From positions 1 through 58,552 of the forward strand of contig DASXUJ010000085.1 in assembly GCA_036504895.1 (NCBI GenBank): a stretch of DNA of 58,552 nt, given 5' to 3'. Position 1 is the stretch's first letter, and the number at the start of each line of letters is the position of its first letter. A program made the position numbers and the translations under genes. Below, piece by piece: positions 6,298 to 25,562 of the stretch. This stretch comes from Syntrophorhabdaceae bacterium. GTDB lineage: Bacteria > Desulfobacterota > Syntrophorhabdia > Syntrophorhabdales > Syntrophorhabdaceae. The notes under the pieces were generated by a model. The model was not told the origin of the DNA, made no database searches, and was given only the letters and a program-made list of their open reading frames with translations.

Positions 6298-7683
6298 ATG
6301 AAACGACTTACTGCTCTTCTCTTGGTTCTTTTGTGTATCGGATGTGCGGGGATTCTCAGTGCGGAAGAACGGTCGGCGCCCCAGATCCCGGCGGTACAGG
6401 CAGGGGCAGCGGCTCCCGCGCCCCAGGCAACAGCGCCCGCTCCGGCGGCGCTGAAAATCGACTCGGGCGACACGGCATGGGTGCTCATATGCTCCGCCCT
6501 CGTCATGCTCATGACCCCGGGTCTCGCATTCTTTTACGGAGGAATGGTGGGTCGAAAGAATGTACTCGGTATCCTCATGCAGTGTATGATCCTCCTCTGT
6601 ATCGTGAGCGTCCAGTGGGTACTCTATGGCTATAGCCTCGCCTTCGGCCCTGAAAAGGGTTTCTGGGGAGGTTTTGCCTGGGCCGGGCTCTCGGGGGTGG
6701 GGCTCGAGCCGTATAAGGATTATGCGGCCACTATCCCTCACCAGGCATTCATGATCTTTCAGGCCATGTTCGCCATAATCACCCCTGCCCTTATCATCGG
6801 CGCCTTTGCCGAGAGAATGAAGTTCTCCGCCTTCGTGGTCATCATGATCCTCTGGGCCACCTTCGTCTATGACCCTGTCTGCCATTGGGTCTGGGGCGTG
6901 GGAGGCTGGCTCAGGGAGATGGGCGCCCTCGACTTTGCAGGCGGCACGGTAGTCCATATCAACGCAGGTATCGCGGCCCTCATGACCGCCATCTTCATCA
7001 AAAAAAGGAAAGGCTCGAACCACAAGGCGATTTTGCCCCATAACCTCCCCTTTACCGTCCTCGGCACCGCGCTACTCTGGTTCGGCTGGTTCGGCTTTAA
7101 CGCGGGAAGCGCCCTGGCGGCCAACGGACTCTCGGTAAACGCATTCGTCGTCACCAATACGGCGGCAGCGGCAGCAGGCCTCACATGGGCGATTATAGAC
7201 TGGATCTTCAATGAAAAGCCTACCATGCTCGGCACTGCTACCGGCGCGGTGGCGGGTCTTGTGGCGATCACTCCCGCGGCAGGATACGTGAGCGCCCTTT
7301 CGGCACTCATGATCGGCGCACTGGTGAGCATCTTCTGTTTCTTCGCCGTAGCCTGGATCAAACCGAAATTCGGGTACGACGACGCCCTCGACGTCTTCGG
7401 CGTCCACTGCGTGGGCGGGATATGGGGAGCCCTCGCCACGGGACTCTTTGCCTCCAAGGCCATAAACCCGGATGGAGCGAACGGCCTCTTCTTCGGTAAC
7501 CCGAAGCAATTCGTGGTCCAGCTCGTGGCGGTCCTCGTGACCGTGGCATACAGCTTCGTCGTGAGCTACCTCATTTATAAAGTAGTCGACATGGTCATGA
7601 AAGTGAGGGTAACGGAAAAAGACGAAACCCTGGGCCTCGACCTGAGCCAGCACCACGAGAATGCGTATACGGTGTTGGAGTAA
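6298..7683 (+). CDS. amtB: Ammonium transporter AmtB (copy 1)
   Basis: A 461-residue trimeric-type ammonium channel of the inner membrane. There is a cleavable signal peptide (1-21), then a 30-residue Ala/Pro-rich periplasmic spacer and 11 membrane segments beginning at DTAWVLICSALVMLMTP. The twin pore histidines are present: H220 in GTVVHINAG and H370 in FGVHCVGG. The cytosolic tail ends with LDLSQHHENAYTVLE, nearly identical to copy 2. The start has a strong AGGAGG site. It is followed by a PII gene, the usual partner that blocks the channel when nitrogen is plentiful. The two amtB-PII cassettes are paralogous. Confidence 0.96.
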   Translation: MKRLTALLLVLLCIGCAGILSAEERSAPQIPAVQAGAAAPAPQATAPAPAALKIDSGDTAWVLICSALVMLMTPGLAFFYGGMVGRKNVLGILMQCMILLCIVSVQWVLYGYSLAFGPEKGFWGGFAWAGLSGVGLEPYKDYAATIPHQAFMIFQAMFAIITPALIIGAFAERMKFSAFVVIMILWATFVYDPVCHWVWGVGGWLREMGALDFAGGTVVHINAGIAALMTAIFIKKRKGSNHKAILPHNLPFTVLGTALLWFGWFGFNAGSALAANGLSVNAFVVTNTAAAAAGLTWAIIDWIFNEKPTMLGTATGAVAGLVAITPAAGYVSALSALMIGALVSIFCFFAVAWIKPKFGYDDALDVFGVHCVGGIWGALATGLFASKAINPDGANGLFFGNPKQFVVQLVAVLVTVAYSFVVSYLIYKVVDMVMKVRVTEKDETLGLDLSQHHENAYTVLE

Positions 7684-7760
7684 CGTGTGATGCGTGTAAA
7701 ACGGGAAGGCGTTAGAAGAGAAATCGGAAAACGTGTAATCGGAAAACGGGGAAATGCGAA
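7684..7760. repeat. Degenerate octamer array after amtB1
   Basis: Directly after the amtB1 stop there is low-complexity sequence built from the words GTGTAAA/GTGTAATC and TCGGAAAACG, which alternate with a spacing of 8-9 bases (for example 7721-7747). The same words fill a longer stretch after amtB2. No coding potential is credible here. Confidence 0.7.
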
Positions 7761-7782
7761 AAAACCTAAAAGCCCTTTGAAG

Positions 7783-7890
7783 TTGTAGCTCGCACGGCGA
7801 GCGAGAAGGGGAGGCTCCACGGGCTTGGCCCGTGGACCAACAGTAGGCGCTTTAAGCGGGGGGCGACGCGAGCCCCAATAATTGACTGCA
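7783..7890. repeat. Mosaic palindromic element, copy 1 (A-C-B-D)
   Basis: Four hairpin modules lie end to end between amtB1 and the PII gene. A is GCTCGC-ACG-GCGAGC. C is TCCACGGGC-TTG-GCCCGTGGA. B is ACCAACAG followed by a CGCTT/AAGCG stem and a G run. D is a GGGC...GCCC stem around GACGCGA. Copies 2 and 3 contain the same modules with changed, mostly still pairing, bases. The element ends about 15 bases before the PII start, so it is transcribed if the cassette is one operon. Confidence 0.8.
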
Positions 7891-7904
7891 AAAGGAGGAA
7901 AATA

Positions 7905-8246
7905 ATGAAACTTATCATAGCCATTATAAAACCGGATAGGCTGGAAGCGGTAAAACAGGAATTATACAAGGCTGATATAAACCTCATCACCGTAAACGAA
8001 GTACTCGGCCACGGCAGGCAGATGGGGGTGACCGAAGTCTACAGGGGCGCCCGGGAAATGGGCAACCTCCTCAGGAAGATCCGTCTCGAAATTGCCGTGA
8101 ACGACAACTTCCTGGAGCCCACGATCGCGGCCATCGTAAAAGGAGCCCAAACCGGAGAGGTAGGAGACGGCAAAATCTTCGTCCTCGACCTCGCCGACTG
8201 CGTCCGAATCCGAACCCAGGAGCGGGGAGGAAAGGCGATAGGATGA
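7905..8246 (+). CDS. glnK: PII nitrogen-regulatory protein (copy 1)
   Basis: A 113-residue PII protein that senses ATP/ADP and 2-oxoglutarate and docks on AmtB. It begins KLIIAIIKPDRLEAVKQEL, has the B-loop TGEVGDGKIFVL and the C-loop RIRTQERG, and its T-loop reads TEVYRGAREMGNLLRK. Tyr46 is present, but the position of the Tyr51 uridylylation site in enterobacterial GlnB/GlnK is Glu51, so this PII should not be regulated by GlnD in the classical way. The start has a strong AAGGAGG. It lies 221 bases after amtB1, separated by repeats. Confidence 0.95.
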   Translation: MKLIIAIIKPDRLEAVKQELYKADINLITVNEVLGHGRQMGVTEVYRGAREMGNLLRKIRLEIAVNDNFLEPTIAAIVKGAQTGEVGDGKIFVLDLADCVRIRTQERGGKAIG

Positions 8247-8250
8247 AGCA

Positions 8251-8390
8251 GTCGCTAGTCGCTAGTCTCTAGTCGCTAGTAAAAGAGAAAAGCCGTAGTG
8301 AACTCAATGAGGATGGCTGCCGGCGCTGAAAAGCGTCCGGCAGCCATTTCTGTTCACTAACGACTAGATACTAGATACTAGAGACTAATT
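8251..8390. repeat. Inverted heptad array after PII copy 1
   Basis: Just after the PII stop, the heptad TAGTCGC/TAGTCTC is repeated four to five times (8254-8280). About 75 bases later the same words return in inverted orientation as GACTAGATACTAGATACTAG with flanks (8356-8388). The two arms could pair into a long imperfect stem enclosing a perfect inner hairpin at 8313-8347. The same arrangement with different words (TAGTATA) follows PII copy 2, and a one-armed version lies at 32463-32541. Confidence 0.75.
8313..8352 (+). terminator. Hairpin terminator after PII copy 1
   Basis: ATGGCTGCCGG (8313-8323) pairs perfectly with CCGGCAGCCAT (8337-8347), with an inner GCGCT/AGCGT stem, and is followed by the T-rich TTTCTGTT. 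It sits inside the inverted heptad array and probably ends the first amtB-PII transcript. Confidence 0.65.
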
Positions 8391-8394
8391 ATCA

Positions 8395-8654
8395 CTTTTT
8401 GGGTTAACAAAAAGCGATAATTGTTACTCGTACCTACCAAGGTCTCACGCAGACGTGGCGACCGTAACTTACCCTCATCGACCCCGAGGGAAACTCAACA
8501 GCGTAGTTCAAATCAGTCAAAGAGATTATAGACTGGGGGGCTGAACATTCAGCCCCGGAGATAAGGGTGTGCCGCTCATCATGAGGCGATCCTGTGCCGT
8601 AGAGGCGAGGGGACCACACTTTTATCCTCCACAAAATTACCCGGAGGTGACTTG
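8395..8654 (+). promoter_or_regulatory. Structured leader of amtB2
   Basis: This gene-free stretch holds a CCCTC/GAGGG hairpin (8472-8490), the 15-mer GTTCAAATCAGTCAA (8506-8520) and a perfect 8-bp hairpin GGGGCTGA-ACAT-TCAGCCCC (8537-8556), then a further imperfect stem before the ribosome site. The motif ACTTACC, the CCCTC/GAGGG hairpin and GTTCAAA-x-CAGTCAA recur in the same order before glnN, which suggests a shared cis-regulatory RNA or operator. I match it to no riboswitch family. Confidence 0.5.
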
Positions 8655-10007
8655 GTGAGGAAGGTCGTATTTGTGTTGGTGCTGGTGATGGGTCTCCTGA
8701 TCGCAGGGGTCTCGCTCGCTCAGAATTCGGAAGTAGTGCCCCCTATGCAGACAGTGGCGGCGGGTGCGGCGTCATCCCCTATCGATACGGGGGATACTGC
8801 CTGGATGCTCGTATCCATAGCTCTGGTGATGCTCATGACGCCTGGGCTCGCATTTTTTTATGGGGGTATGGTGCGGCGCAAGAACGTGCTCGGGGTCCTG
8901 ATGCAATGCTTTATTGCCCTGGGCCTGATTACGGCGCAGTGGATCCTCTTCGGGTACAGTCTCTCCTTTGCGCCCGCGAAAGGTTTCTGGGGCGGCCTTC
9001 AGTGGATGGGTCTGAGCGGGGTCGGCTCCATGCCGTTTAAAGAGTATGCCCCCACCATTCCCCACGAAGCCTTCATGATGTTTCAGGCCATGTTTGCCAT
9101 AATCACACCGGCCCTTATCATCGGCGCCTTTGCGGAGAGGATGAGGTTCGCGGCCTTCGTGATCTTCAGCATCCTCTGGGCGACCTTTATCTACGACCCA
9201 ATCTGCCATTGGATGTGGGGCGTGGGGGGATGGCTCAGGGAGATGGGCGCCCTCGATTTCGCGGGTGGAACGGTGGTGCATATCAACGCGGGCATGGCGG
9301 CCCTGGTGGCTGCCCTCGTAATAGGAAAACGGGACGGGTATATGAACAGACCGGTCCCGCCCCATAACCTGCCCTTTACCGTCCTCGGCACCGCGCTCCT
9401 CTGGTTCGGCTGGTTCGGGTTCAACGCGGGAAGCGCCCTCGGCGCGAACGGGCTTGCGGTCCACACCCTTGTCGTGACCCACACGGCCGCGGCAATCGCG
9501 GGGATCACCTGGGCATGCCTCGAATGGGTATTCAACGAAAAGCCGACCATATTCGGCACGGTCACCGGATCGATCGCGGGACTCGCCACCATTACACCCG
9601 CATCGGGATTCGTGACAATCGCCGCGGCGGCGCTTATCGGATTCGCCGCGAGCGTGGTCTGTTATGTCTGCGTGGCCCTCGTAAAGCCGAAGTTCGGATA
9701 TGACGATTCTCTTGACGCCTTCGGCGTCCATGGAGTAGGCGGCATCCTCGGCACTCTCGCGGTAGGCATTTTCGCCTCGAAAGCGGTCAACCCCGCGGGA
9801 GCGGACGGGCTGCTCTACGGAAACCCGAAGCAGCTTCTCATCCAGCTCATAGCCGTGGCAGTGACCATGGGATACAGTTTTATCGGAAGTTACATTATAC
9901 TTAAAGTAATCGACCTGTTCTTAAAGGTAAGAGTGGGCGAGAGAGACGAAATAATAGGCCTCGACCTCACCCAGCACCATGAGAATGCCTATACAGTGCT
10001 CGAGTAA
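8655..10007 (+). CDS. amtB: Ammonium transporter AmtB (copy 2)
   Basis: A 450-residue AmtB paralogue of the upstream copy: signal peptide, 11 membrane segments, and both pore histidines (VVHINAG and FGVHGVGG). The tail (LDLTQHHENAYTVLE) is almost the same as that of copy 1, whereas the N-terminal spacer is shorter and differs. GTG at 8655 is preferred over the TTG at 8652 because it lies 7 bases from GGAGG. The duplicated cassette suggests differential expression of two channels with two PII proteins; the leaders in front of them differ completely. Confidence 0.95.
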   Translation: MRKVVFVLVLVMGLLIAGVSLAQNSEVVPPMQTVAAGAASSPIDTGDTAWMLVSIALVMLMTPGLAFFYGGMVRRKNVLGVLMQCFIALGLITAQWILFGYSLSFAPAKGFWGGLQWMGLSGVGSMPFKEYAPTIPHEAFMMFQAMFAIITPALIIGAFAERMRFAAFVIFSILWATFIYDPICHWMWGVGGWLREMGALDFAGGTVVHINAGMAALVAALVIGKRDGYMNRPVPPHNLPFTVLGTALLWFGWFGFNAGSALGANGLAVHTLVVTHTAAAIAGITWACLEWVFNEKPTIFGTVTGSIAGLATITPASGFVTIAAAALIGFAASVVCYVCVALVKPKFGYDDSLDAFGVHGVGGILGTLAVGIFASKAVNPAGADGLLYGNPKQLLIQLIAVAVTMGYSFIGSYIILKVIDLFLKVRVGERDEIIGLDLTQHHENAYTVLE

Positions 10008-10155
10008 GGCGTTAAGGCGGGTGATGTGGGTGAAGCGTGTAAAGCGTGTAAAGAGGAAATCGGAAAAGGTGTAATGGGAAAACGAGATGCGTGTAATGCG
10101 TTAAAAGCGAAAATCGGAAAACGTGTAATCGGAAAACGAGGATGCGTGTGAAATG
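10008..10155. repeat. Degenerate octamer array after amtB2
   Basis: A longer version of the array after amtB1. GCGTGTAA is repeated around 10034-10051, and GTGTAAT alternates with GGAAAACG through 10062-10140. The words are the same as after amtB1, but their number and order differ, so this is not a simple copy of the first intergenic region. Confidence 0.7.
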
Positions 10156-10193
10156 TTGAGTGAAAGGACTGAAGAGACATTTTGTCCCACGTG

Positions 10194-10317
10194 CCGTAGC
10201 TCGCACAGCGAGCGAGAAGGGGAGGCTCCACGGGCTTGGCCCGTGGAGGGGGCGACGCAAGCCCCATTGATAGTGCGACGTGAGCCCCAATAATTGTGGA
10301 CGCGAGCCCCATTAAAT
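10194..10317. repeat. Mosaic palindromic element, copy 2 (A-C-D-D-D)
   Basis: Module A (GCTCGC-ACA-GCGAGC) and module C (TCCACGGGC-TTG-GCCCGTGGA) are followed by three successive versions of module D (GCGACGCAAGCCCC, GCGACGTGAGCCCC, GACGCGAGCCCC). Module B is absent. It occupies the same place as copy 1, between amtB and the PII gene. Confidence 0.8.
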
Positions 10318-10335
10318 TGTGCAAGGAGGAAAATA

Positions 10336-10677
10336 ATGAAACTGATCATTGCCATAATAAAACCGGACAGGCTTGAAGCGGTAAAACAGGAGCTTTATAA
10401 GCGGGATATAAACCTCATGACCGTGAGCGAGGTTCTGGGTCATGGTCGGCAGATGGGTGTGACTGAAATTTACAGAGGGGCAAGGGAGATGGGGAACCTC
10501 CTCCGGAAAATCCGTCTCGAGATCGCGGTAAACGAGGATTACATGGAGACTACCATCGAAGCGATTGTAAAAGGCGCACAAACGGGCGAAGTGGGAGACG
10601 GCAAGATATTCGTCCTCGAACTCGCCGAATGCGTCCGGATCCGAACGGAAGAAAGGGGTCGGAAGGCAATCGGGTAG
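10336..10677 (+). CDS. glnK: PII nitrogen-regulatory protein (copy 2)
   Basis: A 113-residue PII protein very close to copy 1 (same start KLIIAIIKPDRLEAVKQEL, same T-loop RGAREMGNLLRK, B-loop TGEVGDGKIFVL). Glu again replaces Tyr51, so both paralogues lack the classical uridylylation site. Differences cluster around residues 22-32 and 74-80. ATG at 10336 follows a strong AAGGAGG; an in-frame extension upstream runs into the repeat element and is rejected. Confidence 0.95.
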   Translation: MKLIIAIIKPDRLEAVKQELYKRDINLMTVSEVLGHGRQMGVTEIYRGAREMGNLLRKIRLEIAVNEDYMETTIEAIVKGAQTGEVGDGKIFVLELAECVRIRTEERGRKAIG

Positions 10678-10950: not shown

Positions 10951-11172
10951 GTCTTATGACTCGTACGAATTAATTTTTATCGAGGTGAAAGAGGATAAGA
11001 TTTTTGTTCCCCAAGCCTTGAAAGGAAAGACCTTGCGGTCCGGCATCAGTCCCTCGGTTTTCAGGGATGGTCCCGGGTACGCGAAAAAGGAATCAATGTT
11101 CCGTATTGTATCCTTTCCCATTCAAGGGAGAGGTAAGATATAGGGGTACATATTCCACACATGGAGGAAAGT

Positions 11173-13269
11173 ATGGAGCTTACAGAAGTCTTCGGTTCTA
11201 ATGTATTTAATGACAAGGTGATGAAAGAGCGGCTGCCCAAGCAGATATATAAGGCGCTGAAAGAGACGATCGACAAGGACATACCTCTTAGGCCTGAAGT
11301 CGCCGATGTCGTGGCGAATGCGATGAAAGATTGGGCTATCGAGAAGGGGGCCACCCATTACACCCATTGGTTCCAACCCCTCACAGGGATTACTGCTGAA
11401 AAGCATGATTCTTTCATATCTCCTGCCCCGGACGGCAGTGTAATCCTCGAGTTTTCCGGAAAACAGCTCATCCAGGGCGAGCCGGATGCCTCTTCCTTCC
11501 CGAGCGGCGGCCTGCGAGCCACCTTCGAGGCCAGGGGATATACCGCATGGGACTGCACGTCGCCGGCATTTCTCAAGACCGATGAAGCGGGCAATGTGAC
11601 CTTCACCATCCCCACCGCCTTCTATTCTTATAACGGCGAAGCCCTCGACAAGAAGACTCCTCTGCTGAGGTCCATGACGGCGGTCTCCAAGCAGGCATTG
11701 CGCGTTCTCAGGGCACTCGGAAATAAGGCCTCCGCCAAGGTCACCGCTACCGTAGGCCCGGAGCAGGAATATTTTCTGGTCGATAAGAAGTTCTACCTCG
11801 ACAGGCTCGATCTCATGCTTGCGGGAAGGACCATCTTCGGCGCTCCCGCCCCTAAGGGTCAGGAGCTCGAGGACCAGTATTTCGGCTCCATCAAGGACAG
11901 GGTCTCCGATTATATGAACGACCTCAATATGGAGTTGTGGAAGATGGGTATTACTTCGAAGACCCAGCATAACGAAGTGGCCCCTGCCCAGTATGAGATG
12001 GCCCCTATTTTCGGCACCACCAACATTGCGACGGACCACAACCAGCTCGTGATGGAGACCATGCAGAAAGTGGCGCTGCGCCATGACCTCGTGTGCCTTC
12101 TCCATGAAAAACCGTATGCAGGCATTAACGGCTCCGGTAAGCATAACAACTGGTCTCTTTCCACCGACGACGGCCTCAATCTTCTCGAGCCCGGCAACAC
12201 TCCCGGCGAGAACGTCCAGTTCCTTCTTTTCGTGAGCGGCCTCATCAAAGCCGTCGATCTCCACGCGGACATCCTGAGGGCGACCTGCGCAACCGCGGGC
12301 AACGATCACCGTCTCGGCGCAAATGAGGCGCCTCCCGCCATTATCTCCATTTTTATGGGCGAGGAGCTGACGGGAATCCTGGAAAAAATCGCAAAAGGCG
12401 AAAAGATCACCACGAAAGACGCCCAGTTCGTAAAGGTGGGCGTGGATACGCTGCCCCCCATCCCCAAGGACAATACGGACCGGAACAGGACCTCTCCTTT
12501 CGCCTTTACAGGTAATAAATTCGAATTCAGGATGGTCGGCTCGGCCCAGTCGGTCGCGGGATCGAATGTGGCGCTCAACACGATCGCGGCAGAGGCCTTC
12601 GATGAAATCGCCACCCGCCTCGAAAAAGCAAAAGACAAGAATGCCGAGGCAGCGGCTATCATCAGGGATATCTATAAGAAACATAACCGCATCATCTTCA
12701 ACGGCAACAACTATTCCGACGCCTGGGTAGTCGAAGCCGAGAAGAGGGGGCTTCCCAATGTGAGGAATTCCGTGGATGCCCTCAAGGCCTTCGTCACCAC
12801 CAAGGCACTTAAACTTTTCGAAAAATATGAGGTCTTTATCCCGAAGGAACTCCATTCCCGTTATGATGTGTATGTGGATGCCTATTCAAAACAGATCAAT
12901 ATCGAGGCCATGGTGGCAATCGACATGACGAAGCGGCAGTTCCTGCCCTCAGGCCTCGAATATGCCACCTTTCTGGCAGATTCCATCGCCACTTTCAAGA
13001 GTCTGGCGGTCAGCGCGTCCGTGCAGGCGGATATATTGAAGAAGCTCAACGGCGTGCTCTCATCGGCCTACAAGAACATGGCGAAGCTCGAAGGCGCCGT
13101 CGCCAAGGCTCAGGCAACCGGGGACGTGGCAAAGCAGGGCGAGGCTTACCGCGACAAGGTATTCCCCGCCATGCAGACCCTCAGGGCAGACGTGGATGCC
13201 ATGGAGCTGATGGTGCCGAAGGACATGTGGCCGGTACCGACCTACGCCGACCTCCTGTTTAAACTGTAA
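11173..13269 (+). CDS. glnN: Type III glutamine synthetase
   Basis: A 698-residue GSIII-family enzyme (much longer than the roughly 470 residues of GSI) that condenses glutamate and ammonium with ATP. Recognisable segments are [10 protein letters not shown], the PIFGTTN region, [18 protein letters not shown] with the ammonium/glutamate site, and [10 protein letters not shown] near the middle, followed by the long C-terminal helical region of GSIII. ATG at 11173 follows GGAGG by 5 bases; the ATG four codons earlier overlaps that site. It completes the nitrogen island with amtB and PII. No adenylylation-type regulation is expected for this family. Confidence 0.96.
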
Positions 13270-16416: not shown

Positions 16417-16794
16417 AGTCTCTCCTCTTTACAGAATATTGCCCTGTTTCAGGATTGTCCATCCTTCTGCGGAGGATATTGATGAGTGGTCGATGGTCGA
16501 TGTTTTCCCGTTTCCGATCATACCAAAGCATAATCCTCCGAAGAGAGGTCGGTCAAGGCTTTCTTTCCGGTCGACCGGCCATGGGCCGACGTGGGGACCG
16601 CGCGGTTACCACGTCCAAAGGTCACATAACTTGTAAGAATATAGGAGCGGAAATAAGTAACGACGAGTGGGTCCGCTATTTCCGTTCCGGGCTTTGAACC
16701 GAAGTCCGGTGGACATGTTCGGCACGGGGCGTCATCCCCGATAGATGCACAAATAGTCCCTTTAAGGGACATGGGGCGGCAAAGGAGGTTGAAG
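16417..16794. other. Divergent intergenic region
   Basis: These 378 bases separate the DUF3300 gene (minus) from the amidotransferase gene (plus) and should hold both promoters. A good hairpin pairs GGAGCGGAAATA (16644-16655) with TATTTCCGTTCC (16677-16688) with one mismatch. No clear -35/-10 pair or gene is seen. Confidence 0.5.
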
Positions 16795-17562
16795 ATGAAG
16801 AGGAAGATACTTATCACCAAGCACATAGAAAAAGAAGGGGGAGGTCTTATTGAGGACTTCTTCAGAGAGGACGGCTGGGATGTGGCCGTTGTCGAGTTGG
16901 GGAAGGGGGAGGAGCTGCCGGACTCGATCGACGAATATGGGGCGGTTTTTGTCATGGGCGGTCCCATGAATGTCTACGAAACATCGCCTTATCCCTTTCT
17001 TGAGAAAGAAGAACGTGTGATCCGGAAGTGCCTTATCGCGGAAATCCCTCTTCTGGGCATCTGTCTGGGAGCTCAGCTGCTCGCGAAGACATGCGGGGCG
17101 AGAGTGAGGAAGGCGAATCATAAGGAGATCGGCTGGTACAGGCTTTCCCTTACCGAAGAGGGCACGGAGGACGAGCTGTTCAAGGGGCTGTCCCGCACAC
17201 TGAATGTGTTTCAATGGCACGAGGACACCTTCGAGATACCCCACGGAGGAACTCTGCTGGTCCACGGAAGAATCTGCAGAAATCAGGCATTCAGGGTCGG
17301 CCGGAACGCCTACGGCCTCCAGTTCCACCTTGAAGTCACCGCTGCGATGATCGAGGAATGGCTGAAGGACGAGCCCGATAAGGTCATGGGGCAACAAATT
17401 CTGAGCGACGGGGCCATGGGGTATGGGGAATTCGAGGCCCAGGCCCGTAAATTTCTCTCCAATTTTAAGGACCTTATCGAGTCCTCGCTGAGGAAGAGAA
17501 ATATCATGGACATATTTACGGAGGATGAGTTGGGGAAGAAACAAGAGTCCTTCGCCGGTTAA
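16795..17562 (+). CDS. Class I glutamine amidotransferase (GuaA-N-like)
   Basis: A 255-residue stand-alone amidotransferase domain resembling the N-terminal half of GMP synthase. The nucleophile is Cys90 in LLGICLGAQLLAK, the oxyanion region is VMGGPMNVYE, and the catalytic His-x-Glu is in QFHLEVT. FQWHEDTFEIPHG matches the family. ATG at 16795 follows AAAGGAGG by 7 bases. There is no synthetase domain, so it either hydrolyses gamma-glutamyl compounds or supplies ammonia to an unlinked partner. It precedes the mvhD-metVF promoter, so it is likely a separate transcript. Confidence 0.85.
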   Translation: MKRKILITKHIEKEGGGLIEDFFREDGWDVAVVELGKGEELPDSIDEYGAVFVMGGPMNVYETSPYPFLEKEERVIRKCLIAEIPLLGICLGAQLLAKTCGARVRKANHKEIGWYRLSLTEEGTEDELFKGLSRTLNVFQWHEDTFEIPHGGTLLVHGRICRNQAFRVGRNAYGLQFHLEVTAAMIEEWLKDEPDKVMGQQILSDGAMGYGEFEAQARKFLSNFKDLIESSLRKRNIMDIFTEDELGKKQESFAG

Positions 17563-17629: not shown

Positions 17630-17659
17630 TTGACATAGGTCATAATATGCTGTTACAAT
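17630..17659 (+). promoter_or_regulatory. Sigma-70-type promoter for mvhD-metVF
   Basis: TTGACA (17630-17635) and TACAAT (17654-17659) are spaced by 18 bases, a near-consensus promoter. Transcription would begin near 17666 and meet the attenuator within 40 bases. Confidence 0.7.
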
Positions 17660-17702
17660 AATAGCCGATTCGGCACAACGGGGTGCATGATCAGAAGAGA
17701 CG

Positions 17703-17730
17703 AAGGCGTCCGGGAAGGGACGCCTTTTTT
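17703..17730 (+). terminator. Terminator/attenuator in the mvhD leader
   Basis: AAGGCGTCC (17703-17711) pairs with GGACGCCTT (17718-17726) around GGGAAG, followed directly by TTTT. It lies between the promoter and the first gene of the operon, so most transcripts would stop unless something prevents folding. An ATG at 17687 with a short frame running through the hairpin could be a leader peptide. Confidence 0.75.
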
Positions 17731-17763
17731 CATCAAGGACGAAAAATTAAGAAGGGACGATTT

Positions 17764-18183
17764 ATGGATCAAAAGAGCGCCGGACTTAACATTTCCATCT
17801 TTTTCTGCCAGCAGTTGGACCCGGAGCAGGACACGCACAGGCGAAGTCTTGAAAAGGAGCTGGGAGGGGGGATAAAATTTTTTCCCCTGCCCTGCAGCGG
17901 CCGGATCGACCCGCTTCACCTTATGAGGGCCCTGGAGGCGGGGGCGGACATGGTCTACCTTGTCACATGCCCGGAAGGGGCCTGTCGTTATCGTGAAGGT
18001 AATACCCGCGCTGCCAAGCGCCTCGCCTATACCCAGGGTCTTATCGAGGAGATCGGGCTTGAGCGGCAGCGCCTCGAGCTGGTCGTAACTACGGCGGACT
18101 CACCGACCACGGTAGACGCCCTCGCCAAAGCATTTCTCGCCCGGGAAGCGTGCGTCGGGCCTTCTCCTGTGAGGGGAAAATAG
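17764..18183 (+). CDS. MvhD/FlpD-type electron-transfer (hydrogenase iron-sulfur) subunit
   Basis: A 139-residue member of the MvhD/FlpD family, small [2Fe-2S]-type proteins that pass electrons between a dehydrogenase or hydrogenase and HdrA-like flavoproteins. The conserved cysteines are visible in IFFCQQ, PLPCSGRID and the VTCPEGACRYREGN motif. ATG at 17764 follows AGGGA; the longer frame from 17683 runs through the terminator hairpin and is rejected. It is the first gene of the mvhD-metV-metF set. No hdrA occurs in the window, so its flavoprotein partner may be one of the glutamate-synthase-like proteins downstream (inference). Confidence 0.88.
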   Translation: MDQKSAGLNISIFFCQQLDPEQDTHRRSLEKELGGGIKFFPLPCSGRIDPLHLMRALEAGADMVYLVTCPEGACRYREGNTRAAKRLAYTQGLIEEIGLERQRLELVVTTADSPTTVDALAKAFLAREACVGPSPVRGK

Positions 18184-18224
18184 ATTTTGGAGGAAAAAGT
18201 GGCTAATTACGAAGGAGTAAGAGC

Positions 18225-18893
18225 ATGATAACAGCCGAAAGAAAGCCTTTAACAGAGATCAAGGAGATGATCGCGCCTTACAAGAAGATCCTGGTGGTCG
18301 GGTGCGGAAGCTGCGTGGCCGAATGCGCAGCGGGAGGAGAGAAAGAGACGGGGCTGCTTGCTTCGGCGCTTCGCATGGACGCCAAGGCATCAGGCCGCGA
18401 GATCGAAGTGAAAGAGATGACCCTCGACCGTCAGTGTGTCTATGAATTTATAGATCAGCTGACCGAGGTGATCGATCAGTTCGATGCCGTCCTCTCCTTA
18501 GGGTGCGGCGCGGGCGTGCAGGCGGTTGCCCGGGTTTTCCCCAAGGTGCATATCGTCCCCGCCCTCAATACCACTTTTATCGGAGAAACCAGGGAAGCCG
18601 GTGAATGGGTGGAAAATTGCCGGGCCTGCGGCGACTGTAAGCTCGGCTTCTTTGCCGCCGTATGTCCCGTCACGCGTTGCGCAAAAGGACTTTTCAACGG
18701 TCCCTGCGGCGGGTCGAAAACCGATCGCTGCGAGGTCGATCCTGATACCGAATGCGCGTGGCAGCTCATCATCACGAGACTCGATGAAATGGGCCGCCTT
18801 GACCTCCTCCGAAAGGTTCATCCCCCTGCGGATTGGTCGAAACAGCAGGGAAAGGGACCGAGGAAAATCCATAGGGAGGACCAGAACACGTGA
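18225..18893 (+). CDS. metV: MetV-type zinc/iron-sulfur partner of methylene-THF reductase
   Basis: A 222-residue protein of the methylenetetrahydrofolate-reductase C-terminal (MetV) family. The cysteine pattern is C27-G-S-C30-x3-C34 at the start, then CRACGDC and CPVTRCAKGLFNGPCGG in the C-terminal part, consistent with metal or FeS binding. In acetogens MetV forms a complex with MetF and is needed for electron delivery to it. The 4-base overlap with metF and the mvhD gene 41 bases upstream support a three-subunit enzyme. Confidence 0.9.
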   Translation: MITAERKPLTEIKEMIAPYKKILVVGCGSCVAECAAGGEKETGLLASALRMDAKASGREIEVKEMTLDRQCVYEFIDQLTEVIDQFDAVLSLGCGAGVQAVARVFPKVHIVPALNTTFIGETREAGEWVENCRACGDCKLGFFAAVCPVTRCAKGLFNGPCGGSKTDRCEVDPDTECAWQLIITRLDEMGRLDLLRKVHPPADWSKQQGKGPRKIHREDQNT

Positions 18894-19813
18894 AAACTGA
18901 AAGCCAGCTCAAAAAGGTTCTTATGGGAGGACATTTCGCCGTTACCGCCGAGTGCGGTCCCCCCAAAGGAGCCGATCCCGAGGCAATAATAAATAAAGGA
19001 AAGGTCCTCAAGGGCCATGTGGACAGCGTCAATGTCACCGATAACCAGACGGGAGTGGTGCGTCTTTGCAGTCTGGCCGCCTGCGCGATACTGAGGGCGG
19101 AAGGGCTCGATCCCGTGCTCCAGATGGTCACCCGTGACCGTAATCGCATTGCCCTTCAGTCGGACGTGCTCGGGGCATCGTCCCTGGGAATCCGCAATAT
19201 CCTTTGCCTTTCCGGCGACCATCAGTCTTTCGGCAACCAGCCCCATGCAAAGGGAGTCTTTGATATCGATTCGATTCAATTAGTCCAGACGGTCCGCAGG
19301 ATGAGGGACTTAGGCGAGATCATCGGCGGCGATAAACTCTCCGACGGGCCGGACCTGTTTGTGGGCGCCGTGGCGAACCCCTTTGCGGACCCGTTTAAAT
19401 ACAGGGTAACGAGATTGGCAAAAAAGGTGGACGCGGGAGCGGAGTTCGTTCAGACCCAGTGCGTCTACAACCTCGCGCGGTTCAAGGAGTGGATGGGCCT
19501 CGTGAAGGATTACGGTCTCGAGAAAGAGGTCTTTATCCTGGCAGGCATTACTCCGTTGAAATCAGCCCGCATGGCCGAGTACATGGCAAAGCAGGTGGCG
19601 GGCATGGACGTGCCCGAGGCGATCATCGACCGCATGAAAGGGGTGGCCGCAAAAGAGCAGCGCGCGGAAGGCGTGAAAATTGCGGTGGAGACCATCGAGG
19701 CCCTGAAGCAGATGGAAGGGGTGAGCGGGGTCCATATTATGGCAATCGAGTGGGAGGACGTGGTTCCCGGGCTTGTCGAGAAGTCCGGCCTTCATCCCAG
19801 ACCCCTGATCTAA
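18890..19813 (+). CDS. metF: 5,10-methylenetetrahydrofolate reductase
   Basis: A 307-residue FAD-dependent TIM barrel that reduces methylene-THF to methyl-THF, or the reverse in methyl oxidation (Wood-Ljungdahl direction is undecided). It shows VTAECGPPKGADP, DSVNVTDNQ, LCLSGDHQSFGN and the late FILAGITPLKSARM. The start is GTG overlapping the metV stop. The NADH-binding eukaryotic extension is absent, and the MetV/MvhD neighbours imply ferredoxin or another low-potential carrier as electron partner. Confidence 0.95.
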   Translation: MKTESQLKKVLMGGHFAVTAECGPPKGADPEAIINKGKVLKGHVDSVNVTDNQTGVVRLCSLAACAILRAEGLDPVLQMVTRDRNRIALQSDVLGASSLGIRNILCLSGDHQSFGNQPHAKGVFDIDSIQLVQTVRRMRDLGEIIGGDKLSDGPDLFVGAVANPFADPFKYRVTRLAKKVDAGAEFVQTQCVYNLARFKEWMGLVKDYGLEKEVFILAGITPLKSARMAEYMAKQVAGMDVPEAIIDRMKGVAAKEQRAEGVKIAVETIEALKQMEGVSGVHIMAIEWEDVVPGLVEKSGLHPRPLI

Positions 19814-19850
19814 AGAATTTGCGAGAGGAAATACCGTAAGGAGTAACAAC

Positions 19851-21233
19851 ATGCCCCTTAAATATCATATCCAAACCGGCCAGGCGCCGAACAGGTTTCA
19901 ATCGATCACCCGGTCGGGTGTTATCGCATGGGAAGAAGGGTGCCTCAAGTGCGCCCGTTGCGTAAAGAAAGAATGCGTCTACAAGGTATACGAGAAGCGC
20001 GGTATCGATTCACGCCAGATGCTCGAATCCCTGGACAGCATGTGCAAGGACTGCTTCCGCTGTGTGCAGAACTGTCCCAACAGGTTGATCCAGAAAGGGC
20101 TCAACCCCAGCTTCAAGGTCTTGGGCGACGCCTATTGGACGCCGGAGATCATTGCCGCTCTCTGGTCTCAGGCGGAGGCGGGGAAAATACCCGTTTCCGG
20201 CGGAGGATACGGCGGGGCCTTCTCCGGCCCCGGCTACGATTCAATGTGGACCGACATGTCCGAGATCGTCCGCCCCACGAGAGATGGAATACACGGCCGT
20301 GAATATATCAGCACCACCGTCGATCTGGGACGCAAGGTGATGGCCCTTCAATTCGACGAAGCAGGGGCGCTCCTCACCGAGACGCCGCCCCTGGTGGAGA
20401 TACCGCTGCCGCTCATCTTCGATATACTCCCCTGGTCACCGCCGAGGGCGCGCATCACCATGGCCTTCCTCGAGGGGGCGAAAAGCCTCGGCACCTTTGC
20501 CGTAGTCCGTCAGACCGATTTCAAGGACGATATGGCGGGCTACCTTTCCCACATCATGCTCCTTCTTGACGGGAATTTGGATGACCTCGACCCCGCAATG
20601 GTTAAAAAACTGCGCCTGATAGAGGTCCCTTATACGGGAAAAGCCCTGGAAATCCAGGCGAAACTGAAGGAAATAAATCCGGATATCGTCGTCGCCATAA
20701 GGCTCGCGCTGGGGCCCGACGCCTCCGAGACCGTCTATCGCCTCACTGTGGACGGGGCGGAAATAATTCATCTCATGGCAGACGAATTTGGCAGGGAAAG
20801 GGGCGAAAACCCTCTTTTTGTAAAAGACCGGACCAAGGAGATTCACCTCAGCCTCGTGGAGCGGGGCGTGAGGGACCGGATCACGCTTATCGTGGGTGGA
20901 GGGATCGCCATGGCCGAGCACGTGGCAAAACAGATCATCTGCGGCGCCGATGCGCTTACCGTCGATATACCTCTGCTCGTGGCCATGGAATGCAGGGTGT
21001 GCCGGCGCTGCAAGGAAGGCATCGACTGCCCCGTCGATCTTCACGAGGTGAATCCCGCGTGGGGCGCAGCCCGGATCCGCAACCTCATCTCGGGGTGGCA
21101 CAGTCAGCTCCTCGAGACATTGGGGGCCATGGGTATCCGCGAGGTAAGGCGGCTTCGTGGGGAAATGGGCAGAGCCATGTTTTTCGAAGATCTTGAAAAA
21201 GAAATTTTCGCCGGAATGGGCAAAAGGGGTTGA
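19851..21233 (+). CDS. Ferredoxin plus degenerate glutamate-synthase-like protein
   Basis: 460 residues. The N-terminus binds two likely [4Fe-4S] clusters: C31, C34, C37, C42 and C65, C68, C71, C75 (CKDCFRCVQNCPN). The rest has the outline of the glutamate synthase FMN barrel (ITLIVGGGIAMAEHVAKQII, ALTVDIPLLVAMECRVCRRC). It lacks the barrel motifs present in the next gene: GGMSFGS, TGEGG, QGAKPG and GGTGAAP have no counterparts. It therefore looks like a non-catalytic paralogue that may have an electron-wiring or structural role. A good ribosome site (AAGGAG) and a 37-base gap from metF put it in the same operon. Confidence 0.8.
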   Translation: MPLKYHIQTGQAPNRFQSITRSGVIAWEEGCLKCARCVKKECVYKVYEKRGIDSRQMLESLDSMCKDCFRCVQNCPNRLIQKGLNPSFKVLGDAYWTPEIIAALWSQAEAGKIPVSGGGYGGAFSGPGYDSMWTDMSEIVRPTRDGIHGREYISTTVDLGRKVMALQFDEAGALLTETPPLVEIPLPLIFDILPWSPPRARITMAFLEGAKSLGTFAVVRQTDFKDDMAGYLSHIMLLLDGNLDDLDPAMVKKLRLIEVPYTGKALEIQAKLKEINPDIVVAIRLALGPDASETVYRLTVDGAEIIHLMADEFGRERGENPLFVKDRTKEIHLSLVERGVRDRITLIVGGGIAMAEHVAKQIICGADALTVDIPLLVAMECRVCRRCKEGIDCPVDLHEVNPAWGAARIRNLISGWHSQLLETLGAMGIREVRRLRGEMGRAMFFEDLEKEIFAGMGKRG

Positions 21234-21237
21234 TGTA

Positions 21238-22758
21238 ATGGCAAGCGAATCACAAAAATACACATTTCCTGAAACTAAACCGGTGCCGAGCCGCTTCCGC
21301 AATGCCCTCGGCAAATATAAGGTCCGCATAAGCAAGGCGTGCACCAACTGCGGGATCTGCATAGAGACCTGCCCCCACGGGGTCTATAAACCGGGCGTAA
21401 AGAGGCCGAGACCCCTGAGGGACCATCTCTGCCTTGGCTTTTCCTGTAATAAATATGAATATTGCTGCGTGGGCAAGTGCCCCGAAAAGGCCATAGAGGT
21501 AACCGTCAACCCCTCTTTCGAGATCCTCGGCGATAAGCGGTGGCCGGCCGACCTTCTCGCCGGCACCTGGCATATGGCGGAGACCGGAGGTCTTCCCCAC
21601 CAGGATTTGAATTATAAGACAGGGGAATCCGGAGGAGGGTTCGACAAGCTCCGTTTTGTCTTTCCCAAAGGCAAGGTTCGGGAGCCGGCCGATGAAGAGG
21701 TCTCTACCGCCATCGAGTTGAACCGCTCCGGCGATTCGAGGCCGAAGATCACCATTCCCGTCCCCTTCTACCTTGGGGGCATGTCCTTCGGCTCCGTAAG
21801 CATCGTGACCATGCTCTCCCGCGTCAGGGCTGCGAGCGCCCTCAACACCTTCTGCTGCACGGGCGAGGGCGGGTACCCGGAAGAGCTCATCCCTTATGAC
21901 GACCATATTATTACCCAGGTTGCCACCGGCCTCTTCGGGGTGAGGGAGGAGACCATAAAGCGTGTGAGGATCGTGGAGTTTAAATACGCCCAGGGCGCCA
22001 AGCCCGGTCTCGGCGGCCACCTCCTCGGAGACAAGGTGACCCCCCGTGTCGCGGCGATGCGAGAGGCCGTGACGGGAAGCGCGCTCTTTTCGCCTTTTCC
22101 CTTCCACAGCGTCTATTCCGTTGAAGACCATAAGAAGCACGTGGACTGGATCAAGGAGATGAACCACCACGCCCTCGTGTCCGTCAAAGTATCCACCCCC
22201 ACGGACGTGGACATGGTAACGGTGGGCAGCTACTTTGCGGGCGCCCATATCGTTCAGCTCGATGGAAGTTACGGCGGTACGGGTGCGGCGCCCGATATCG
22301 CCAAAAAGAATATCGCCATGCCCATAGAGTATGCCCTGCCCAAGGTACATAAGTTCCTGAGCGAGGAAGGCATCAGGGATAAGATCACGATTATCGCCAG
22401 TGGGGGCATACGCTCCGCCTACGATGTGGCTAAGGCGATCGCCATGGGCGCCGACGGCGTCTGTCTGGGTACGGCCGATCTCGTGGCCCTTGAATGCATC
22501 CGCTGCCACCATTGTGAATCGGGTCGGGGCTGCGCGCGGGGCATTGCCACCACGGACCCCGAGCTGACGGGTCTTATGGAGCTTGACTGGGCGACCCAAC
22601 GTATCGTCAACATGTACCTCGTGTGGCGTAGGCAGCTCGTATCGATCCTCAAGCGGTTCGGGATGAAAAGTATTACGGAATTGACCGGGCGCTTCGATGC
22701 CATCGCACACCTCGATTATTTGAAAGAGGGAGAGATAGACGGAGTATTGGATTTATAA
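21238..22758 (+). CDS. Ferredoxin-containing glutamate synthase FMN-domain protein
   Basis: 506 residues. The N-terminal ferredoxin part has CTNCGICIETCP and a second set in CLGFSC...CCVGKCP. The FMN barrel is complete with FYLGGMSFGS, CTGEGGYPEEL, QGAKPGLGGHL, QLDGSYGGTGAAP and IIASGGIRSAYDVAKAIAMG, as in archaeal-type split glutamate synthases. It would convert glutamine-derived ammonia and 2-oxoglutarate to glutamate. ATG at 21238 begins 5 bases after the upstream stop; a longer in-frame version would overlap that gene by 77 bases and is not favoured. The partner amidotransferase is encoded next. Confidence 0.88.
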   Translation: MASESQKYTFPETKPVPSRFRNALGKYKVRISKACTNCGICIETCPHGVYKPGVKRPRPLRDHLCLGFSCNKYEYCCVGKCPEKAIEVTVNPSFEILGDKRWPADLLAGTWHMAETGGLPHQDLNYKTGESGGGFDKLRFVFPKGKVREPADEEVSTAIELNRSGDSRPKITIPVPFYLGGMSFGSVSIVTMLSRVRAASALNTFCCTGEGGYPEELIPYDDHIITQVATGLFGVREETIKRVRIVEFKYAQGAKPGLGGHLLGDKVTPRVAAMREAVTGSALFSPFPFHSVYSVEDHKKHVDWIKEMNHHALVSVKVSTPTDVDMVTVGSYFAGAHIVQLDGSYGGTGAAPDIAKKNIAMPIEYALPKVHKFLSEEGIRDKITIIASGGIRSAYDVAKAIAMGADGVCLGTADLVALECIRCHHCESGRGCARGIATTDPELTGLMELDWATQRIVNMYLVWRRQLVSILKRFGMKSITELTGRFDAIAHLDYLKEGEIDGVLDL

Positions 22759-22837
22759 TTACGACTCGCGAACGGAAAAGAACGGGCTGGAGGAAATGGC
22801 CCGCGGCTCAGACCGTCCGCTTATATGAGGTTTTGAT

Positions 22838-25507
22838 ATGAAAGAGAGAAACAGAGGTGAATCCATACTGAATGCGCGCGCCCATCTCCGGGGTCCCGCA
22901 AACCGGGCCGACGCGGGTATCGAGGCGGAGGAAGGCGGCTGCGGCGTTACCGGGTTCGCCTGTAATATTCCCGTGAGCGGCCGTCATATCTTCGAGCCTT
23001 CCGTGCAGATGCATAACAGGGGCAACGGCAAAGGGGGCGGCCTTGCCGCGGTAGGACTCGTCCCGGAGAAACTGGGCGTCTCCAGGGAGATCCTGGACAG
23101 CGATTTTCTCCTCCAGGTGGCGCTCCTCGACGAAACCGTGCTGCCCGAGGTGGAGGCGCGATTCGTGAGGCCCTTCTTCCGCGTCGACCACGAATCTTTC
23201 ATCGATTCGATAGACGACTACCGGGACATTCCAGGCCTCGAAGTGAAGCCGCCCCAGGTAAAGAGGTATTTCGTGCGGGTGAAGCCGGAAGTGATCGAGA
23301 TTTTCCGGAAGGAGCGGGGGCTCACATCGATCCCCCTCCACAAGGTGGAAGAGGAGTTCATTTATCAGAACACCTATCAGCTCAACCGCACCTTTTACAG
23401 CTCCCTGGGTGAGAAGAGGGCTTTTGTTCTCTCCCACGGCAGGGATATGATGATCCTGAAGATCGTCGGGTATGCCGAGACCGTGGCCCAGTATTATAAG
23501 CTGGAGAATTTCAACTCCCATATCTGGATCGCCCATCAGCGCTATCCGACGAAAGGCCGGGTATGGCACCCGGGCGGGGCCCATCCTTTTATAGGGCTCG
23601 ACGAAGCCCTGGTCCATAACGGGGATTTCGCCAATTACTATTCCGTCTCCGAATACCTCAAACAGCGGAACGTCTATCCCCTGTTCCTTACGGACACGGA
23701 AGTTTCGGTCCAGGTTTTTGACCTCCTGAACAGGGTATACGGCTACCCCCTCGAATATATCATCGAAGCCCTCGCCCCTACGGGAGAGATGGATTTCGAT
23801 CACCTGCCAGAAGAGAAGCAGCGCATTTACCGGCAGATCCAGGCGGCCCACATTCACGGGAGCCCCGACGGACCATGGTTCTTCATCATTGCCCGGACCG
23901 ACGTGGAGAAGAAGCAGTACCAGCTTATCGGCATCACCGATACGGCCATGCTCCGGCCCCAGGTTTTTGCCCTTCAGAAAGGGGACGTGGAGATCGGGCT
24001 CATCTGCTCCGAAAAACAGGCCATAGACGCGACCCTCGTGAGCCTCGCGAAAGAGGACCAGAGGTTCGGCACCGTGGCGGACCGTTACTGGAATGCCCGG
24101 GGAGGGAGCTACACCGACGGCGGCGCCTTTATATTCACCGTAAAAGAGTCGGAGCCGGGGAAAATGGACCTGACGTGCACCGATAAATTCGGGCGAGTGA
24201 TAGATGTGCCCGCGGACCGGCCCCACCTCGATTTCCGTGCAAAATTACCCCGCACCCCCACGTGTCACGTGGACCACCTGAGGAGCATCGTCAGGGACCT
24301 CTCGAAGAAAAACGTGGAGGAGCTTTTCTTTACCCTTAAGCCGGGATTGGCCAAGTGGGATTATGCGCGCTTTTATACCTTCCTTGACCTCCTCACCGCA
24401 CTGGCCGAGGAAGACGACCTGAAAGGTCCGGTTCTGGGGCTCCTGAGCCGCCTTCTCGACAGGCATTATCCGATCGGCGCCAAGAGACGCCGGTCCGTGC
24501 TCCAGATGATCTCCCAGACCATCGACTCCATCCTGAGGGCCATCCCGCTCCTCAATGCCAAAGGCAACGTACTCTACGGCCGCAGGATTGACTGGGAGAA
24601 CCGCGCTACCCTGCGCGCGCCCGAAAAAGGGGAGCGTGTACTGGTGGCCGATGCGGGCGGGTTCCCGCCCGAGGGCGATGAGTCTTATTCAAGCCTCATA
24701 TCGAGCGCATACAATCTGGGCTGGAAGCGGTTCATCTGCTTCGGTCACCGGGGCCAGCGCTTTCTGGGCTGCGGCTTCGGGCCCGATTCGAAAGGCGTGC
24801 GTATCGACGCCTTCGATTCAACGGGCGATTATCTCGGCTCAGGTATGGACGGTCTCGAGATACACGTACACGGCAACGCCCAGGACCAGCTGGGCCAGAT
24901 ACTTAAATCAGGCAAGCTCGTGGTCTACGGCGACGTGGGCCAGACGTTCATGTATGGGGCTAAAGGCGGAGAGGTATACGTCCTCGGCAATGCAGCGGGA
25001 AGGCCCCTTATTAACGCGGTAGGTAAGCCGAGGGTCGTGATCAACGGCACCGCCCTCGACTTTCTTGCCGAATCTTTTATGGCCGGCGATCCCTACAACG
25101 GCGGAGGCTTCGTGGTTTTGAACGGCCTCGCCTTCGACGAGGAAGAACGGGTGGTCTCCCTGAAGACGCCCTATCCGGGGTCGAACCTCTTCTCCCTCGC
25201 ATCGGGGGGCGCCATATTCGTGAGAGACCCTTATAAGACTATTGTTCCCGAGCAGTTGAACGGGGGACAGATCCTTCCTTTCGAGGAGAGGGATTGGGAG
25301 CTTATCCTGCCCTATCTCAAAGAAAACGAGCGCCTCTTCGCGGTCTCGATAGAAGAGGACCTGCTTATGGTGGATGGGGTGAAGAGGAGTCCGGCGGAAG
25401 TCTACCGGACCATCACCGCGGTCAAGCTGTCCGTGCTCTCCGGCGCGGCCGCAGCCCTCGCCATGAACGAAGAGTGGGAGGAAGAGGACGAGGAAGAGAT
25501 AGATTAG
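22838..25507 (+). CDS. Fused GATase class II and GXGXG glutamate-synthase protein
   Basis: 889 residues. The N-terminal class II amidotransferase carries a GGCGVTGF motif with Cys35 as candidate nucleophile, which requires removal of a propeptide of about 34 residues as in GltB. Substrate-site segments MHNRGNGKGGG, QRYPTKGRVWHPGGAHPF and LVHNGDFANYY follow. After a helical linker (about 470-600), the GXGXG beta-helix domain occupies about 640-800 (GYLGSGMDG-like region, GAKGGEVYVLGNAAGRP). Archaea usually encode these two parts separately, so this is a fusion. The C-terminus is strongly acidic. It completes a glutamate synthase with the preceding protein. Confidence 0.87.
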   Translation: MKERNRGESILNARAHLRGPANRADAGIEAEEGGCGVTGFACNIPVSGRHIFEPSVQMHNRGNGKGGGLAAVGLVPEKLGVSREILDSDFLLQVALLDETVLPEVEARFVRPFFRVDHESFIDSIDDYRDIPGLEVKPPQVKRYFVRVKPEVIEIFRKERGLTSIPLHKVEEEFIYQNTYQLNRTFYSSLGEKRAFVLSHGRDMMILKIVGYAETVAQYYKLENFNSHIWIAHQRYPTKGRVWHPGGAHPFIGLDEALVHNGDFANYYSVSEYLKQRNVYPLFLTDTEVSVQVFDLLNRVYGYPLEYIIEALAPTGEMDFDHLPEEKQRIYRQIQAAHIHGSPDGPWFFIIARTDVEKKQYQLIGITDTAMLRPQVFALQKGDVEIGLICSEKQAIDATLVSLAKEDQRFGTVADRYWNARGGSYTDGGAFIFTVKESEPGKMDLTCTDKFGRVIDVPADRPHLDFRAKLPRTPTCHVDHLRSIVRDLSKKNVEELFFTLKPGLAKWDYARFYTFLDLLTALAEEDDLKGPVLGLLSRLLDRHYPIGAKRRRSVLQMISQTIDSILRAIPLLNAKGNVLYGRRIDWENRATLRAPEKGERVLVADAGGFPPEGDESYSSLISSAYNLGWKRFICFGHRGQRFLGCGFGPDSKGVRIDAFDSTGDYLGSGMDGLEIHVHGNAQDQLGQILKSGKLVVYGDVGQTFMYGAKGGEVYVLGNAAGRPLINAVGKPRVVINGTALDFLAESFMAGDPYNGGGFVVLNGLAFDEEERVVSLKTPYPGSNLFSLASGGAIFVRDPYKTIVPEQLNGGQILPFEERDWELILPYLKENERLFAVSIEEDLLMVDGVKRSPAEVYRTITAVKLSVLSGAAAALAMNEEWEEEDEEEID

Positions 25508-25515
25508 TATGATGC

Positions 25516-25562
25516 CACAGGGCTGAAAGGCGGGGAATGGCCCCTTCAGCCCTGTGTTGTTT
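25516..25562 (+). terminator. Terminator after the glutamate synthase cluster
   Basis: CACAGGGCTGAAAGG (25516-25530) pairs with CCTTCAGCCCTGTG (25543-25556), followed by TTGTTTT. This ends the mvhD-metVF-glutamate-synthase operon. Confidence 0.85.

Follow-up and report, generated by a model that had tools for sequence, protein, structure and literature searches.

The window analysed here comprises positions 1-58,552 of contig DASXUJ010000085.1 from a Syntrophorhabdaceae bacterium (assembly GCA_036504895.1). At positions 17764-25507 it carries six genes on one strand, in the order MvhD/FlpD-like adaptor, MetV, MetF, X, B and G, the last three of which resemble a glutamate synthase (GltS) split into separate proteins. 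Each gene was identified using Pfam and NCBIfam, and their positions agreed with those given in an earlier sequence-only reading of this DNA. On balance we lean towards the view that the operon encodes a nitrogen-regulated GltS taking electrons from a dedicated MetV-MetF pair, rather than from GltD and NADPH or from free ferredoxin. The features of the operon are as follows.

17630-17659, forward strand: sigma-70-type promoter, TTGACA-N18-TACAAT, 11 of 12 consensus matches
17672-17732, forward strand: ANTAR-like antitermination leader, between the promoter and the MvhD gene (fold z -3.55)
17764-18183, forward strand: MvhD/FlpD-like adaptor (D*), 139 amino acids (aa); PF02662, 78.8 bits; Cys15, 44, 69 and 74
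18225-18893, forward strand: MetV; C-terminal domain PF12225, 122 bits
18890-19813, forward strand: MetF; PF02219 (methylenetetrahydrofolate reductase, MTHFR), 133 bits; catalytic Glu21, Asp110 and Gln190 retained
19851-21233, forward strand: X, 460 aa; two-cluster ferredoxin domain (Fer4) and a GltS-type barrel without catalytic motifs (C-terminal part of PF01645, 44.9 bits)
21238-22758, forward strand: B, 506 aa; two-cluster ferredoxin domain and glutamate synthase flavin mononucleotide (FMN) domain (PF01645, 306.7 bits)
22838-25507, forward strand: G, 889 aa; class II glutamine amidotransferase (GATase; GATase_6, 24.8 bits) and GXGXG beta-helix domain (PF01493, 48 bits)
about 25516-25557, forward strand: terminator hairpin with a T-rich tail (fold -31.5 kcal/mol, z -3.5)

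Gene content and the glutamate synthase core

The MetV and MetF genes overlap by 4 bp and the remaining intergenic gaps are 41, 37, 4 and 79 bp in operon order. The promoter and terminator predicted in the sequence-only reading were both recovered. Neither a terminator nor a promoter was found between the MetF and GltS genes of the window, which argues against separate transcription of the glutamate synthase, an outcome that would have spoken against that reading. The four cysteines listed for the MvhD-like protein were each conserved at 88-100% in an alignment; most GltS-linked copies of MvhD are without the second cysteine of the canonical CxxC. Retention of the MetF catalytic residues was evident from alignment to solved MTHFRs and from conservation analysis, and a search of the PDB with MetV yielded no relative.

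The eight ferredoxin cysteines of X are conserved at 99-100%, while the GltS catalytic motifs have been lost. In fold comparison X alone gave its best fit to the FMN barrel of GltS (Z 24.1, 303 residues aligned, root-mean-square deviation (rmsd) 3.3), and the Pfam GltS central domain was matched by 16 of 22 X proteins at E-values up to 1, the best being 1.4e-5. Dismissal of X as a bacterial oddity was rejected on account of this GltS-type fold and of the 22 aligned homologues, which include archaeal proteins. B retains the motifs AQGAKPGxGG and GGTGAAP together with the Fe-S cysteines in 109 homologues, among which most GltS catalytic-motif positions are conserved at 98-100%. G carries a candidate nucleophile, Cys35, in the motif CGVTGF, with removal of a propeptide assumed, as well as HxR...TxG, HNGD and GXGXG; its GATase_6 score lies slightly under the family cut-off. 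The operon therefore holds the FMN domain with its motifs and Fe-S cysteines, and the class II GATase with GXGXG domain, expected of a GltS. A known electron input is missing, there being no GltD in the operon, a core that is split and ferredoxin domains of its own. Judged by its motifs, the core looks likely to work like GltS, yet it belongs neither to the GltBD type nor to the single-chain ferredoxin-dependent type (Fd-GltS).

X and B form a single protein in 11 surveyed loci. A model of a fused X-B (mean predicted local distance difference test score 77, predicted template modelling score 0.71) superposed on the GltS alpha subunit over 592 residues (Z 34.2, rmsd 4.0). In this superposition X falls near the central domain, whose place it is proposed to take, and B coincides with the FMN domain. 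Long frames such as V(347) and X(759) were set aside as fusions, being in reality overlapping open reading frames (ORFs) with late true starts. A search of the genome to which the window belongs found no further glutamate synthase; a third match, of 25 bits, falls in an ORF that adjoins a gene for GMP synthase, and probably represents IMP dehydrogenase.

Conserved linkage and the MetF lineage

A profile of X matched 113 of 395 genomes sampled evenly across the phylum of the window, and the neighbourhoods of 108 loci were compared. MvhD-MetV-MetF stood directly before X in 47 of the 108 loci, spread over 18 families, so that the linkage on which the sequence-only reading depended is conserved and a chance neighbourhood can be rejected. 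A further 26 loci had reduced sets before X (MvhD-MetV in 9, MvhD-MetF in 2, MvhD alone in 15). The rest comprised 8 loci with a GlcD-like flavin adenine dinucleotide (FAD)/Fe-S protein, 11 with a fused form, 14 cut by a contig end and 2 with neither. A separate scan of named genomes gave 23 loci, with MvhD and MetF beside X in bins labelled Syntrophus, other Deltaproteobacteria, Desulfarculus, Nitrospirota and Fibrobacterota, and with the core present without MvhD or MetF in Methanomassiliicoccales and other Thermoplasmata. All 21 of the genomes checked in which MvhD precedes GltS and MetF is missing locally carry a MetVF-type MetF elsewhere, as against 5 of 11 FAD-type genomes (Fisher p 0.0005, uncorrected for kinship).

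Individual loci showed departures from this arrangement. In L022 a weak match to the MetF C-terminus, interrupted by one stop (9661-9975; G143:C105:17312-17626), lies between MvhD and X, possibly a deletion remnant or an assembly fault. In L026 (6507-9997) MvhD is separated from MetV by an insertion comprising a HisH-like amidotransferase and HisF. A second, split glutamate synthase follows the MetF-linked one in L019 (16758-19863) and L027 (16114-21355), so that both types coexist in some genomes.

In a tree of 94 MetF sequences, 43 GltS-linked MetFs formed one clade (Shimodaira-Hasegawa-like approximate likelihood ratio test support 93) next to the HdrA-linked MetFs, with smaller GltS-linked clades elsewhere. 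The GltS or HdrA label required three changes on this tree, compared with about 27 for shuffled labels. The MetF of the window is 81% identical to a GltS-linked orthologue and 61% identical to the HdrA-linked paralogue of its own genome. By sequence, then, the operon MetF is a dedicated paralogue in a genome that has both kinds.

The second kind bears on the statement in the sequence-only reading that no HdrA is present, which holds for the operon, where none of the six genes encodes it, and fails for the cell. The genome has four further MvhD genes, all in Hdr contexts. Three adjoin HdrA genes, and the fourth, on contig C99, belongs to a cluster HdrC-HdrB-HdrA-MvhD-MetV-MetF whose MetF is the 61% identical paralogue. 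HdrA-linked MetVF sets thus bring an MvhD of their own, and the operon MvhD is not favoured as a stray HdrA-type copy. Two of these further MvhD genes (G000:C99:32213-32581 and G000:C73:18576-18947; L002, L003) each contain a single in-frame TGA within the region matching the family, where it probably encodes selenocysteine.

Electron input and nitrogen context

The genes present, their intact catalytic motifs, the conserved linkage and the nitrogen setting were observed; to these the favoured scheme adds, by inference, a physical complex with MvhD as adaptor, its cluster types and the direction of electron flow. The flavin of MetF would oxidise 5-methyltetrahydrofolate (5-methyl-THF; about -200 mV) to methylene-THF, and electrons would travel by way of the Fe-S clusters of MetV and the [2Fe-2S] adaptor of MvhD type into the ferredoxin domain of X. 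From there they would enter the ferredoxin domain of B and reach its Fe-S cluster and FMN. The amidotransferase of G would free ammonia, which with 2-oxoglutarate would give 2-iminoglutarate, to be reduced to glutamate by the FMN of B. The potential of the 2-oxoglutarate/glutamate couple is about -120 mV. That of the methylene/methyl-THF couple, -200 mV (PMC8760232), lies below it, and electron transfer from methyl-THF to glutamate would accordingly be downhill. MvhD has been found to contact MetF in pulldowns from Sporomusa (PMC9430772).

Several observations weigh against this scheme. The genome also encodes a glutamate dehydrogenase; 12 loci have HdrA, HdrB or HdrC genes downstream of G; and MvhD stands before X with MetV and MetF missing locally in a further set of 15. 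The loci lacking MetV and MetF, taken with the 12 that have Hdr genes, imply that MetVF may not be the sole donor, and HdrA could also serve. MvhD might be a socket linking GltS to an HdrA-containing complex (NADH, H2 or ferredoxin); MetVF would then be attached to the same hub, either consuming electrons as well or optionally donating them. HdrA is the known partner of MvhD (PMC9430772), and three loci (L081, L084 and L143) combine Hdr genes, a canonical MvhD, MetV, MetF and a second MvhD, all before X-B. Most loci, that of the window included, are nevertheless without a nearby HdrA, the HdrA-linked clusters have their own MvhD, and the GltS-linked MetFs are a separate conserved lineage. We consider the socket unlikely, though far from negligible. 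Pairing of the operon MvhD with an HdrA encoded elsewhere, which would have told against the sequence-only reading, is likewise opposed by the separate MvhD of the Hdr-linked sets, the HdrA route keeping the low probability just given. The suggestion made in that reading, that the glutamate synthase proteins are the missing electron partner of MvhD, gains from the conserved linkage, from that same separate MvhD and from the fused core, and is tempered by the possible HdrA donor.

Further information on the input came from loci in which a GlcD-like FAD/Fe-S oxidoreductase precedes the same core, in archaea and some bacteria. In 11 loci, all of one family (f9), a single chain of 2,528-2,570 aa directly after the glutamine synthetase gene GlnA unites the GlcD-like protein with X, B and the whole or the greater part of G. 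Examples are as follows.

L071, 6449-14035 after turning: fused GlcD-like/GltS protein, family f9
L072, 6888-14600: fused GlcD-like/GltS protein, family f9, with the domains FAD_binding_4, FAD-oxidase_C, Fer4_8, ferredoxin, Glu_synthase, GATase_6 and GXGXG
L173 and others: fused GlcD-like/GltS protein, family f9

The B part of the fused proteins is without ferredoxin cysteines. Directly before X stands MvhD(-MetV-MetF) in one type and a flavin/Fe-S oxidoreductase in the other, which implies that this site is an electron-input port. On a tree of X the MvhD and FAD types fall on two sides of one branch, a further point against the favoured scheme, as the exchange of input modules was then a single deep event and not many; several independent swaps were dropped as an explanation, the tree needing one change.

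The operon is a nitrogen-assimilation unit. Upstream of it in the window lie the following genes.

6298-10677, forward strand: Amt-PII-Amt-PII (6298-7683, 7905-8246, 8652-10007 and to 10677; Amt PF00909, 446.8 and 426.6 bits; PII by eye)
11161-13269, forward strand: glutamine synthetase type III (GSIII_N, 265.8 bits; Gln-synt_C-ter, 141 bits)
16771-17562, forward strand: class I glutamine amidotransferase (PF00117, 77.7 bits; synteny)

Of 74 loci, 33 have GlnA on the same strand no more than 12 kb away. In relatives GlnA is often the gene immediately upstream, and a class I amidotransferase often stands between GlnA or Amt and MvhD. Neither this neighbourhood nor the leader element had featured in the sequence-only reading. 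Near GlnA in seven loci (L107, L117, L121, L123, L126, L128 and L141) there is another glutamate-synthase-domain protein, gb2, of about 520-576 aa, which in L107 and L117 has an ANTAR-like dual-hexaloop leader of its own.

ANTAR targets have dual hexaloops with A at position 1 and G at position 4, and such elements have been reported before glutamate synthase genes (PMC3369931). Hairpin 1 of the operon leader presents the hexaloop AACGGG, with A1 and G4. Hairpin 2, GAC-GAAGGC-GTC, is overlapped by a terminator-like hairpin, GGCGTCC/GGACGCC-TTTTTT. The same layout precedes MvhD in L015, L016, L017, L087, L133, L150 and L170, with A1 and G4 in both loops, and TTGACA-type promoters are also found 5' of the leader in the first three. 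Hairpin 1 showed covariation (98% of cells paired, two-sided changes at 5 of 5 pairs) in a set selected by a stem-loop screen, a selection that in itself favours pairing. When 220 upstream regions were screened for the motif there were 12 matches, several of them duplicate loci, where about 1 would be expected. The leader thus resembles the ANTAR antitermination elements of the EutV and NasR type (PMC3369931) in its dual hexaloops, in the terminator overlapping hairpin 2 and in its position before nitrogen genes, but differs in that loop 2 of the window copy starts with G instead of A, which makes the function of this copy uncertain. Two ANTAR proteins are encoded in the genome. An Rfam scan of the window returned two tRNAs and nothing else.

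Such a leader would govern all six genes jointly, and X and B both carry ferredoxin domains, as would be expected if the genes were merely co-regulated, nitrogen control tuning the supply of methyl-THF with glutamate synthesis while GltS used soluble ferredoxin. This account explains neither the loci with MvhD directly before X without MetV or MetF nor why the core should elsewhere be fused in frame with a different oxidoreductase, and we regard it as improbable. The subunits of N-methylglutamate synthase are homologous to GltS domains, and MetF is a one-carbon enzyme, so that the core might instead perform other amidotransferase chemistry (e.g. N-methylglutamate-type synthesis) using MetF-derived one-carbon units. 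The near-invariance of most catalytic-motif positions, the neighbouring GlnA, Amt and PII, the occurrence of the same core beside a GlcD-like protein where MetF is lacking, and its standing as the sole GltS found in the genome make this very hard to credit.

Relation to known enzymes and significance

The closest known relative of the input genes is the Type IV (Hdr-type) MetVF MTHFR, HdrCBA-MvhD-MetV-MetF, of Moorella and Sporomusa, with which the operon shares the clustered order MvhD-MetV-MetF and the retained MetF residues. It differs in having GltS in place of HdrCBA (the latter being found in the C99 cluster instead), in an MvhD that usually lacks one CxxC cysteine and in a MetF of a separate clade. 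NADPH-GltS (GltBD) and plant-type Fd-GltS have equivalents of the GATase, central-type barrel, FMN/Fe-S and GXGXG domains, whereas the operon enzyme is split in three, joins GATase to GXGXG, carries ferredoxin domains in X and B, and has MvhD-MetV-MetF upstream and no GltD. The split GltS of L019, noted above, shares the ferredoxin and FMN-domain protein, its GXGXG domain being on a separate protein; unlike the operon it has a GltD-like, NAD(P)-binding flavoprotein part and no X, and as in L027 it coexists with the MetF-linked set.

Types I to IV of MetVF reductases have been described, with no GltS type among them (PMC8760232), and a review passage on GltS donors discusses pyridine nucleotides and ferredoxin (PMC8097209). 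Text searches of open-licence literature found no description of the MvhD-MetVF-GltS arrangement, which we rate as known parts in an unreported wiring. We tentatively put forward, at somewhat less than even confidence, a further class of GltS, a 5-methyl-THF:glutamate synthase that would use MvhD as adaptor to couple the oxidation of methyl-folate directly with ammonium assimilation. It would be widespread in Desulfobacterota, with further members in bins of Nitrospirota and Fibrobacterota, and would have a sister class driven by a GlcD-like 2-hydroxyacid oxidoreductase, at its extreme a single enzyme of ~2,530 residues.

GltS is a central point of nitrogen entry into metabolism, and textbooks give its donors as NADPH, NADH and ferredoxin. 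The findings suggest that glutamate synthesis in many anaerobic bacteria draws electrons from one-carbon metabolism. If so, MetVF and MvhD would both acquire a new job, with a bearing on the partners of MetVF-type reductases. A GltS fed by methyl-THF or 2-hydroxyacids would spare NADPH and ferredoxin in energy-limited anaerobes, and would provide an electron sink for the oxidation of methyl-THF, a hard step of acetate oxidation.

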